A stretch of DNA of 64,000 nt from assembly GCA_021234155.1 (NCBI GenBank), contig JAJEKV010000128.1, positions 1,899,736-1,963,735 of the forward strand, read 5' to 3'. The position numbers and the translations under genes were made by a program. The number at the start of each line of letters is the position of its first letter. Within the stretch, counting starts at the first letter, position 1. The notes under the pieces were generated by a model. It searched no databases and was not told the origin of the DNA. It worked only from the letters and a program-made list of their open reading frames with translations. The stretch is from Isoetes taiwanensis. Taxonomy: Eukaryota; Streptophyta; Lycopodiopsida; Isoetales; Isoetaceae. Of the stretch, positions 31,416-54,411 are shown in pieces.

Positions 31416-31534
31416 GAGAGAGAGAGATGAGAGAGAGAGAGAGAGAGAGAGAGAGATGTATTTTAGAGAGAGAGAGAGAGAGAGAGAGAGAGAGAGAGAG
31501 AGAGAGAGAGAGAGAGAGAGAGAGAGAGAGAGAG
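31416..31534. repeat. (GA)n microsatellite, interrupted; 3' tail of LINE copy a
   Basis: GA repeat broken by 'atgta tttt' style interruptions. It abuts the LINE 3' end at 31535. Confidence 0.93.
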
Positions 31535-33719
31535 TCTTTGGGAGCCTGAAGTGTATTATGCCTTTGGGAGGCGCCTATAAGATTATACACATCATAGTCA
31601 TAAAAATTAGATGAGTTTCCAATTCCTCATCAATTCCTCTCTCACTCAATGCATCCCTCTTCTTCTATTAGGGTATTTACATTTTAATACAACTCTCTCT
31701 ATGTTGTAGAGTCTCAATTAAAAAGGATCCAATTCTATTTCCTTCCAATCCAAAAAGGTATATAAATCGTGCACGTTGATGCCATATCTGTCTCGATATT
31801 ATACTATAGGCTGGACACTTAAGTATGACATGGTCTTCGTCTTCTATCTCATCTTTTGCCGCGACTTTTTGCAGCATCTCATGGTTCTCGGAGTAGTACC
31901 CCATCTCCCAACCTCCACACCTAGATGGTGCGAAGCTGAGGCGGATTCTCTGTGATATTGTGCCTCTTCTTTATCGATAAGTTCTCCTTTAGATGTATTG
32001 CCTCATCCAATGTAGGATTCATATGCATCTTATACAATATCATCTTAGTCTTTGGGCTCATCCACATTTTTCTTCTAACCTTTTTCATAGACCCATGTTC
32101 TCGGGGTTGTCAATGGAAATTGCCTCTTCCCACATGATATCCCATCTTTCAAGCCATGTCTTGACATGACAAACCATCCTTTTTATGTTCGGTGTTCAGG
32201 GCAAGCATAATAAGGAATGCGTGTGGCATCCATCTTTTTTATTTTAGCAAGGTACCTAATGCATTTGAGTAAAGCTTCCCCTTCAAGTGGCATAGTGCCG
32301 CATTCGGGCTAGCATCATCGGATATGGGTTTTGCGCCTTTACACCCAATTCCAACCCACGAAACTTCTTGTGTACACATTTCAATATCATCCCAAGAGCC
32401 TTGTGGCAGCCCCGGTCCCCAAATTTCAGCCCCATATAATACTATGCTTTGGACTAGAGATTCATACGAGTTTTTCTTTTAGTGGCCATGCCCATATGTG
32501 GGTTTTCACCGCACATGCTTTGCATAGAATCTGATTATATACACTTGGCGCTTTCAATTCTTTGTTGTATGCAATCGATGCCATTTATGATTCCCGCTAA
32601 TAGTAAGTCCCGGATATTTATATGTCTCGCATATCTCAACTTTTTTCACCCAAAATAGAAACCCTGATACATCATGGTTTTAGTCTTCTCTAGATTTACT
32701 TGCATCCCGTTTTGTTATTCTGTAAAGCAGACCAATTGATCAAGTAATTGCTGCATGTGTACACAGGATCGATGTAAAATAGCACCACATCATCGACATA
32801 TAAGAGCAATTGGATCACATATCCTTGAATCTCGGTTACCTCCATCCTATATTATGTAACCATTCTTCAGTACATCAATAAAGAGACCAAATATAGTAGG
32901 AGACAAAGGGACATCCTTGTTTAACTCAATGTTACTTTCAAGCGTATGCGTATCTCACTTTTGAATGGCATCGATAAGCGGTACTAAAACTTTCTCATAG
33001 AGTATTTGAACCGCATCCTGCAAGTGTTTAGGGACACATAATTGCTCCATTCTTTCCCATAATCTATTCACAGGAACTTTGTCAAATGCCTTCGTACGAA
33101 AGTCTACAAATGTGACATATAGAGGTTTTTACGGTCCTCTTGGCCAGATCAAAAATGCATTTTAATGCAAGCAAATGGTCCAATGTGGACATTTTAGCCC
33201 TAAAAACCTGCTTGGGTTTTGGCTCTTTTTCCAGATTATGCTCAACCCAAAGACTAATTTTTTTCTCTACAATATTTGCAAATAATTTAGAGAACAAATT
33301 ACTTACCATGAGAGGATTACGTAATTGTTTCCGCCTAGCATGGAACCACTCTTATGCTGCTGGAACAATTCGGTTATTTGCCACTCACAGTGGGAATCCT
33401 TGTTGCATTGCTAAAAGGTAAACATCGTGCTATTATGGTATGGATGCCCCTGCCCATTTAAGATGCTCGGCACATATCCTGTTTTGATCCTTTGCTTTGC
33501 CATTTGCAAGACTATCAACGCCGACAACCACTTCTTCTTTTGTAAAATCATATCGGACCTCACTTTTAGCGGGGACTCGATGCTATCATCTTATATTATA
33601 ATGTTATCACAGTAATTCTTGGATTGGATCAAGCCCTAATTTGAATGTTCGAGATCATCCGAGGTGCATCAAAGGCGATTTATTATTGCGACTTACTATC
33701 ACCATGATTGGTGGTACTT

Positions 33720-52735: not shown

Positions 52736-54396
52736 ATGAGAGAGTGTTATTACGTCTATGGAGACCTCATAGGTCTATGAGACGCTTACAAAAAGAAACT
52801 TACAGCAGTTCTTCCGAGGAATCCTCCTCAAGGATTTCCTCGACTCTCTCCTCCCAAACATCCTCCTCCTCACTATCAAACATAGTATTTTGTAAATGTT
52901 TAATATATGCTTCTCTATCCGTAATACTTCAATAACAAAAGTGCCAATTAGGTTAGCATCAAGTTCAAACAATTGAGACAAGCCATCCACATTTATGCCG
53001 TATGGACTGCTCTCAAGTGTTTCACGCTTGGGACACTCAATCAGCACATGGTGCTCATCTTCTATTTCCGCACATCCACATGACTTACATGTTCTTTCTT
53101 CTCACGGGTATGTTACACCATCGCCCATCTCCACTCTTCGGTACCATGTGAAGCTGAAAGTGCGAGTCTGCTGATTGCATGTCTTTTGCCTATTGAAATA
53201 TTCTCTTGCAAGTGTTTCGCCTGCATACGTGTTCGGGTTCATGTTTGACCTATAGGAGTCCATCTTAGTGCGTGGATTCAGCCATAATTTGTTTATTACC
53301 GTCTCTTTATCCAATGTCCGATATCTCCATCATAGAGCAACGCTTCTTCCAATGAAATACCCCATCGGCTAAACCAATTCTTGGTATCGCATACCAGCCT
53401 TGTTCATATGTAGCGGCAGAAACGGTGTGGGATCCTCTCGTCTGTTTGCTTCTTTAGTTTTTCATAAATCTAATGCATCTTACCATTGCTTCTCCTTCCA
53501 TTGGCATGAGACCACATTCCGCCAAAAGCATTGGGAAAAGGGGTTTGCATTTTCACGCCCAACTCTTCTTGAGTATAAATTTCTTTTAGCTTTTGTTCAA
53601 TGTCATCCCATAATCCCCAGCAAGCTCGGTCCCCAAACTTCGCAGACCATATAACACAACCGTTTGCACCGGCACAAAAAAGAGTGTAATTTTTCATGGG
53701 CCAAGACCATAGATGAATTCTCCGCTTAAACTCCCAGTGTATACAATGCTTTGAGCATATACTTAACCGACCCTCTGCGTTATACAAGCATTCCAAATGG
53801 GTGGTTCTTATGAATTTCAAGTCCCGGTATTTGTAAGAATCACAAGCTGTACCTCCATCCCATTAAAATGGAAATATGTCTTTTAAGAATCCCCCATCGT
53901 CATGACCTTTGTTTTATCAAGATTTATCTCGCATGCCACTATGTTCGAGAAAAGTGACAATGCATTAAGGTGTCTGCTGCTGCATTTGCTCTAATTATGC
54001 ACGGGCAAAGACCACAACATCATCAAAGATACATTAATAGTCTTATCACATGCCCATGTACATACGTACCGGATCCTCCATTTATGCTTAGCCGTGTAGA
54101 CTATCAATAAATAGTCCAAAACAAGTGGGCGAGAGGGGCAGCTACCTTAACTCCAATATTGCTTGATATCGTGTCGTATCTCAAGCAATAAGCGGGAATG
54201 ACGTTTGTATGAGCACTTTTTCATACAAAGTTTTTCTCGCTTCTCTTAAATTCAAAGGCACTCAGATATTTGTTCCATTCTTGCCCATAACTTATCTCTC
54301 GGGACTTTATCAAATGCCTTCTTAAAATCTACAAAGAGTACGTACACTGGCTTTTTCTTTCCTTTCACTGAGTCCATAATAACTTTCAAGGTAATT
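52736..54396 (-). mobile_element. TC-tailed LINE copy j, 5'-truncated within the RT
   Basis: Hairpin AGACC-TATGA-GGTCT in LINE sense (52762-52776). An intact CCHC-type motif reads ERTCKSCGCAEIEDEHHVLI then EC (about 53110-53040). RT tail and palm lie at 53.8-54.38 kb. DDVVVFA near 54020 has lost one base before it, and KKPVYVLFVDFKKAFDK lies at about 54350-54300. Truncated at a short GA tract. Confidence 0.8.
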
Positions 54397-54411
54397 AGAG
54401 AGAGAGAGAGA
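54397..54411. repeat. (GA)7 tract at the 5' limit of LINE copy j
   Basis: agagagagagagaga between RT sequence and an unrelated minus-strand coding fragment. Confidence 0.85.

Follow-up and report, generated by a model that had tools for sequence, protein, structure and literature searches.

The 64,000-nucleotide window analyzed here (C939:1899736-1963735 of the Isoetes taiwanensis assembly) contains a head-to-tail chain of copies of one long interspersed nuclear element (LINE). Together with searches of the assembly (1,658,258,908 bp in 1110 pieces), it makes a strong case that this LINE, which has an apurinic/apyrimidinic (APE)-type endonuclease, carries an intrinsic (TC)n tail and very probably has a strong, if not absolute, preference for (TC)n targets, such that its tails regenerate targets and its chains nest within themselves. 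At the level of the assembled sequence, the features that show this are the tail, a 3' stem-loop, 5' ends behind (TC)n, a microsatellite found free of the elements, a single polarity, chains of mixed composition, and a long open reading frame (ORF) 2. In the mechanism that we propose, the endonuclease would nick a (GA/TC)n tract on its GA strand, and the 3'-OH end of the (GA)n, paired with the RNA's (UC)n tail, would prime target-primed reverse transcription. Slippage on the ATTTC and TC repeats would occur during reverse transcription, and the joining of the second strand would leave (TC)n upstream. Since the tail has the sequence of the target, each insertion would recreate a target downstream of itself, and since the same strand would always be used, arrays would grow head to tail.

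A chain of LINE copies in the window

The 64-kb window has 11 perfect (GA)>=8 runs at eight loci, all within 30455-52734 and all with GA on the + strand; no TC, AT, CA, TG, or GC runs of equivalent length were found across it. On the + strand (GA)n is (TC)n in the sense of the LINE, and it links nine minus-strand copies whose 3' ends lie near 31535, 37283, 38046, 39599, 40345, 44024, 46419, 51966, and 52735. A first-pass annotation of the sequence had proposed a chain of at least nine such copies, which these ends bear out. In the alignment, the 3'-terminal region common to the nine reads ..AGACCtgatGGTCT..AATAAACATTTCATTTC(TC)n, also written ..TAGACCtgatGGTCTCa..AATAAACATTTCATTTC(TC)n in LINE sense, or takes divergent forms of these. 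The same annotation counted six or more pure (GA)n junctions. Five copy-to-copy junctions are indeed long arrays (37195, 37973, 39509, 51853, and 52646), whereas that at 40320-40344 is short and impure (GGGAGGGA..); another short one, at 44014-44023, is GAGAGAGAAA. Its statements that every copy ends in (CT)n and that the chain is all one LINE family were too broad: copy G ends in (TTTC)n, and next to the nine LINE copies the chain holds two segments (30543-31415 and 45125-46417) of a different element, X. The chain is limited by (GA)7 at 54398-54411 and by the array at 30455-30542. Its parts, in window coordinates, are the following.

30455..30542, + strand: (GA)n array closing the chain on the 3' side (LINE sense), with other DNA to the left
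30543..31415, - strand: element X (not LINE) inside the (TC)n array, 84% to 45533-46406
31416..31534, + strand: (GA)n, the (TC)n tail of copy A
31535..37194, - strand: LINE copy A, another subfamily, with a purine-rich interruption at ~33728-35560 (from the 3' end alignment and frames)
37195..37282, + strand: (GA)n junction A/B
37283..37972, - strand: copy B, short, its 5' end that of copy H within a few bases (from the window comparison and genomic relatives)
37973..38045, + strand: (GA)n junction B/C, perfect
38046..39497, - strand: LINE copy C, 5'-truncated, with a weak zf-RVT match below the cut-off
39509..39598, + strand: (GA)n junction C/D
39599..40319, - strand: LINE copy D, 5'-truncated
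40320..40344, + strand: short impure purine junction D/E
40345..44013, - strand: LINE copy E, with the 5' end, pieces coding for ORF1, endonuclease, and reverse transcriptase (RT), and a ~0.7-kb internal deletion (from RVT_1 and genome relatives)
44014..44023, + strand: short GAGAGAGAAA junction E/F
44024..45010, - strand: LINE copy F, truncated on the 5' side near (TC)n, with an approximate end
45030..45124, + strand: (GA)n array separating copy F from X
45125..46417, - strand: second X element, of which only 45533-46406 was matched to the first
46419..46915, - strand: 3' part of LINE copy G, with (TTTC)n at its end
50545..51852, - strand: LINE 5' part (ORF1/endonuclease region), possibly that of copy G; 46920-50545 is other DNA
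51853..51965, + strand: (GA)n junction G/H, its left side impure
51966..52645, - strand: copy H, short, 91% to B over its length
52646..52734, + strand: (GA)n junction H/I
52735..54397, - strand: LINE copy I, 5'-truncated in RT
54398..54411, + strand: (GA)7 bounding the chain on the 5' side (LINE sense)

Among the LINE coding pieces of the window, RVT_1 matches above the cut-off, and endonuclease and zf-RVT below it. When the window is compared with itself, body matches between units of the chain are short and of 67-81% identity, and 95% is reached only in the 3'-terminal 60-130 bp. The ~0.7-kb deletion in copy E is relative to its genomic relatives. Copies B and H, 91% alike over their full length and with 5' ends within a few bases of each other, may be a short mobile unit, possibly a non-autonomous family; besides H, 16 genome alignments to B start at query position 4-7, where the query itself ends. 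The interruption of copy A is a purine-rich low-complexity block of 1.8 kb (~33.73-35.56 kb) with AAAAGG-like units.

The 3' end and its tail across the genome

The 3' ends were sampled with a pattern made of the stem-loop and the ATTTC motif without the TC tail, which gave 185 exact matches in the assembly against 0 for the reversed control. Tails were read at 94 of the 100 places listed among these matches (30 read in the search output, a further 60 fetched, and 4 in the window), and the number of independent tails is slightly below 94, as L009/L109 and L090/L103 are duplicated loci with common flanks. A perfect (TC)>=6 lies within 70 bp in 60 of the 94 (median run 90 bp) and (TC)3-5 in 17; poly(A) occurs once, behind TCTCCCCCC, as do (CA)>=6 and T>=10, and (GA)>=6 was looked for in the 94 tails and found in none. 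The end is ordered as stem-loop, (ATTTC)n, and (TC)n, with 2-10 ATTTC units ahead of TC in the 60 tails of simple structure, and the tail arrays read span 8-216 bp, some of them reaching the edge of the stretch read. A TC tail in place of poly(A), as claimed for the window, is thus the rule among the tails read across the genome, and the predominance of poly(A) or random flanks, named beforehand as the outcome that would speak against the first-pass interpretation, was not found. Since copies outside (TC)n carry a (TC)n tail too, the tail is, on this evidence, intrinsic to the LINE.

The stem-loop was examined in an alignment of 18 diverse ends, hand-chosen from the window and the loci; wA and wE, whose hairpin is deleted or indistinct, were omitted. 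Two helices, the outer of 6 bp and the inner of 5 bp, have 92.9% of their cells paired, compared with 14-56% for slid versions of the structure. The covariation score is 0.235 versus 0.168 in shuffled alignments, a value reached by 0 of 500 shuffles, and both sides have changed in 10 cells across three pairs. The loci of 10 of the 18 rows, and some window copies, came from a pattern that fixes the inner 3' arm, so the variation of the inner helix stems mainly from the other window copies. As judged from this alignment, the LINE shows a conserved two-helix 3' stem-loop with compensatory changes, as in stringent-type LINEs.

Most full-length copies start behind (TC)n and neighbors share one strand

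A search with copy E gave 1657 candidates, 40 of which were scored. Besides E, 13 of the scored loci reach the 5' end (query position <=16), and all were examined, 12 of them as fetched sequence and one by way of L011. A (TC)n/(CT)n array lies directly upstream of 12 of these 13, often after a few extra bases; two of the 12, L065 and L070, have a common flank. What precedes the array is another LINE 3' end at L060, L061, L062, L063 (only the tail part visible), and L069 and, by coordinates, at L067 and L011, and other or X-like DNA at L059, L065/L070, and L068. L119, picked separately for its open frame, likewise starts behind (CT)n, and the succession of a LINE tail and ORF1 or ORF2 of the next copy was confirmed at the protein level at L011, L035, L030, and L160. 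Judged from 274,780 overlapping matches, perfect arrays of >=24 bp account for no more than 0.4% of the genome, shorter arrays lying outside this bound. For eleven matches to copy E the start lies at query 1399-2114. One of these is the continuation of another piece, and of the eight that were fetched, four have TC at the junction. The idea that new copies insert into (TC)n, including the tails of earlier ones, is therefore upheld by the 5' junctions and by the empty sites described below, as a preference and not as an absolute rule.

The assembly has 5001 left edges of (TC)n arrays (a T start after a non-C), and orientations were counted in adjacent pairs 0.3-20 kb apart among 100 of them. 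All 38 pairs of array edges have a common strand, as have 10 of 10 pairs of adjacent LINE 3' ends and 8 of 8 pairs of adjacent RT matches (within 20 kb); when the range is extended to 100 kb, 4 of 48 array pairs are on opposite strands. Two of the 38 pairs on C2 and one on C27 are tandem duplications with like flanks, and two on C11 are CT-rich low-complexity sequence. Removing these five leaves at most 33 of 33 pairs on the same strand, flanks having been checked only in the 40 arrays that were read. These 40 (the first 41 listed, with one interruption skipped) were classed by eye, and their 5' side is a LINE 3' end in 13, a 3' end of the short interspersed nuclear element (SINE) type in nine, an X-like end in four, CT-rich low complexity in five, and something else in nine. 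The one-orientation, self-nesting arrays claimed for the window thus recur elsewhere in the genome.

Empty and filled sites in a dispersed repeat

L078, a truncated copy, is flanked by a dispersed repeat, R, for which 40 of 451 candidates were scored. Twenty copies of R were read across the site and classed as empty or filled by reading; the script's flag for empty sites, which requires an exact R-right word, marks only L200, L202, and L203. Seven of the 20 have no insert, their R-left, CT/CCCT/AC microsatellite, and R-right being continuous (L193, L197, L201, L202, L203, L204, and L211). Five others, on several contigs, have an identified insert behind R-left and (CT)n: a truncated LINE (L206, tblastn 3e-7), a truncated copy of the SINE-like SINE-1 (L196, 6e-11), a 3' fragment of SINE-2 within the microsatellite (L200, by reading), X (L207, by reading), and, in the CT microsatellite, a fragment of the U6 small nuclear RNA (L205, C1053:3450222-3450477, Rfam 9.7e-11). 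As seven copies are empty and others hold identified inserts, the R copies show, in so far as they can be read, that the microsatellite exists without the elements and is the place where they insert. The U6 fragment suggests that the LINE machinery can carry small nuclear RNA.

Other sequence is present in L198, L199, L208, L209, and L210, and L192 is unclassified. L194 and L195 were considered as full-length LINE 5' ends in R, with TC, a short leader, and an ATG frame, but gave no match and were not counted. R-right also follows LINE tails at L010, L032, and, by eye, L052. The paralogs of L065 (L189-L191) were tried as empty sites and are uninformative, since they diverge before the site. Sequence like GATTGGGTCTGATAGA, maybe related to R, stands directly behind short-TC LINE tails at L054, L058, and L088. 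Another dispersed retroposon-like repeat (L161-L171) has the end GCTAGTTCAGGCTGG, behind which most copies have oligo(T) and differing flanks.

SINE-like elements and element X share the arrays

Short elements to the right of several (TC)n arrays have heads that look, by eye and against a remembered consensus, like the A and B boxes of RNA polymerase III promoters. A transfer RNA (tRNA) origin of these heads found no support, with 0 hits by ARAGORN in nine loci and no tRNA match in Rfam in ten. SINE-1 (~186 bp) and SINE-2 (~167 bp) end in GACGTtAAAAAtAc and (TC)n, the same tail as the LINE, with little sequence identity between SINE and LINE 3' ends. An outer stem like that of the LINE is formed by all four trimmed SINE ends examined, but by only one of five longer stretches. 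The folding of the trimmed ends is no better than that of shuffles (z -0.65 to -1.34), and a SINE stem-loop was not retained. The SINE-like elements are probably moved by the machinery of the LINE.

SINE-2, with 40 scored copies at 95-100% identity among 308 candidates, is to all appearances young. In the 18 copies read (17 of the 40 scored and L027), the 5' side is (TC)n or the TC or TATC tail of a LINE or SINE in 12 and CT-rich low complexity in one (L183), and TC is on the 3' side of all but L181, whose 3' end is deleted. Mixed chains include LINE-(TC)-SINE-(TC)n-X at L027 and X-(TC)-SINE-(TC)-X at L188; at L156, a SINE and (TC) are followed by LINE-like sequence for which tblastn gave no confirmation of a LINE.

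The two X elements of the window match at 30549-31410 and 45533-46406 (84%). X measures 0.9-1.3 kb, has an inverted terminal sequence of about TGCGTCGGCCACATGC (by eye), and lies repeatedly inside (TC)n arrays, with ends seen by eye at L012, L026, L037, L046, L110, L154, L188, and L207. It may be a DNA transposon for which (TC)n serves as a site too.

Points against and alternative explanations

A number of observations weigh against a (TC)n-targeting LINE. L064 is the only one of the 13 full-length 5' ends to lack an upstream TC array, which is also missing from the 5' side of four of the eight truncated copies fetched (L078 among them has CTCTCT), of L011, L013, L019, L021, and L028, and of five of the 18 SINE-2 copies (L173, L174, L179, L180, and L182). 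These five show (TC)n to be an intrinsic tail, as the 12 with TC or TATC show a target preference. Neither (TC)>=6 nor (TC)3-5 was seen in 16 of the 94 tails, and the 3'-end pattern covers a single group of subfamilies. Of the five measures of the stem-loop, two fall within the shuffles (double-change pairs 94/500, further pair types 290/500). Both sides of an insert were read only in L200 and the SINE-2 copies L184 and L185, and L074 had to be abandoned as an empty-site assay, its flank being the 3' end of a different retroposon, one whose tails are oligo(T). Finally, the TC tract conceals a target-site duplication, and the nicking strand and the priming are inferred.

If the LINE had a (TC)n tail and inserted at random, chains would have to arise by chance or by later growth of microsatellites at element ends. 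The copies with a non-TC 5' flank and yet a (TC)n tail (the five SINE-2 copies above, L011, L013, and L021) fit this explanation. It does not account for the (TC)n that adjoins 12 of 13 full-length 5' ends, for the seven R copies that hold the microsatellite without an insert next to five with an identified element in it, or for the 38 of 38 array pairs on one strand; the 5' junctions and the empty sites in R rule it out as the whole story, and we consider it very improbable. Entire units could also have been duplicated or shuffled by unequal exchange or conversion between (GA)n arrays, which are natural exchange points. Copies B and H coincide in their ends and are 91% identical, the genome alignments to B do not prove a fixed 5' end of this unit elsewhere, and plain tandem duplications do occur among (TC)n neighbors (L126-L128 and L158/L159). 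However, the other units of the window's chain are divergent in their bodies, and the inserts in R lie on several contigs. Recombination of arrays may rearrange units locally, and there is little chance that it explains the chains.

Long dinucleotide arrays are hard to assemble, and unrelated LINE ends might have been misjoined across collapsed GA repeats. According to the sections of its description that we consulted, the published assembly (1658.30 Mb in 204 scaffolds and 909 contigs) is based on Nanopore and Illumina reads and Bionano maps (PMC8566536). Given the Nanopore reads and Bionano maps, tail arrays of 8-216 bp, many short units, and a one-polarity pattern on many contigs that is not expected of false joins, such an artefact is hardly credible. 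Insertion into (TC)n by a LINE that brings its own (TC)n tail is the explanation that we prefer.

Coding capacity and classification

An RT piece gave 21,219 first-look candidates, and the 150 that were scored are all at <=1.4e-45. Six of these 150 loci have open frames of 1009-1108 aa. L119 has a 330-aa ORF1 frame and a 1108-aa ORF2 frame, the latter with matches to PF03372 Exo_endo_phos (1.4e-11, residues 9-156) and RVT_1 (5e-32). Copy E matches RVT_1 (6.6e-10 and 9.2e-15) and reaches only 0.001 for Exo_endo_phos, below the cut-off. Genome searches revealed frequent 5' truncation with a common 3' end across the family. With RT, an N-terminal Exo_endo_phos, and 5' truncation all present, these matches place the family among the non-long terminal repeat (non-LTR) retrotransposons with an APE-type endonuclease. 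The poly(A) tail and RNase H of the plant L1 clade were not found to be its features, with poly(A) in the single tail mentioned above and no Pfam match to RNase H in the L119 proteins. The nearest solved RTs in a search of the PDB, which resolves no clade, are R2 proteins (8.9e-23) and then 8c8j ('RNA-directed DNA polymerase', 4.5e-18). ORF1 has no Pfam match below 0.05, and its match to L1 ORF1p is non-significant (E=0.2).

Comparison with known systems

Among animal non-LTR retrotransposons, Kibi targets (TC)n and Koshi (TTC)n. The portions of PMC4640811 consulted describe the fish element Togen, with its (TG)n target, and some of the HERO families as microsatellite-specific animal elements as well. 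The Isoetes LINE resembles Kibi, Koshi, Togen, and HERO in its insertion into a microsatellite, and has the (TC)n target of Kibi-like Tx1 elements, but differs from the animal elements in its lycophyte host, the identity of tail and target, the chains on many contigs, and the SINE-like partners. Head-to-tail arrays formed by insertion at earlier copies are known from Zepp of Chlorella and from HeT-A/TART of Drosophila telomeres. The arrays of Isoetes would have the same origin, but lie on many contigs at (TC)n and contain SINE-like and X units.

Stringent-type LINE/SINE pairs include UnaL2, with a TGTAA tail, and the maize LINE/ZmSINE2 (PMC3747384, in part). What these have in common with Isoetes is a 3' stem-loop with compensatory changes, a repeat tail that is not poly(A), and SINE-like elements that carry this tail as well. 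In Isoetes, in contrast, SINE and LINE 3' ends are little alike, the SINE fold is weak, and the tail also matches the target. The L1-clade LINEs of flowering plants (PMC3747384), for which RNase H is reported in plant L1 (PMC4640811; both as far as consulted), share the APE endonuclease and RT with the Isoetes LINE, which differs in its non-poly(A) tails, the lack of an RNase H match in Pfam, and its microsatellite target. In the open-access literature that we could consult in part, no case of a microsatellite-targeting LINE in plants was found, and the accessible parts of the Isoetes sinensis genome paper (PMC10541799) and of PMC5348765 make no mention of a TC-targeting LINE. Whether ancestral plant LINEs used stringent recognition of the 3' end is stated as an open question of Ohshima's model in the excerpts of PMC3747384 consulted, and this model predicts cases of the type found here, in which a LINE of a lycophyte combines a 3' stem-loop showing covariation with a non-poly(A) tail and with SINE-like elements that bear the same tail.

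Our interpretation would bring microsatellite-targeted LINEs to land plants, and would provide an example of a retrotransposon that creates its own target by inserting, tying the abundance of a microsatellite to retrotransposition. The R repeat supplies ready-made empty and filled sites. A wider, rather doubtful extension is that target-regenerating retrotransposition, with at least one new (TC)n site per insertion, multiplies LINE, SINEs, X, and microsatellite together in this plant, and that most long (GA/TC)n arrays of the genome are its product. It is also conceivable, as a speculation, that the upstream (GA)n, a motif bound by GAGA-type factors of plants, acts as an external promoter for the inserted copy; if true, this would explain why full-length copies are found almost only behind (TC)n.

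Other features of the window

Outside the chain, a 1-kb stretch with open frames occurs in two diverged copies (22929-23965 and 57684-58719, 69%), and the translated frames look, by eye, like F-box/kelch-type proteins. A duplicated repeat lies at 5757-6874 and 19665-20856 (85-93% identical), and a tandem array with a 315-bp period at 831-1783.

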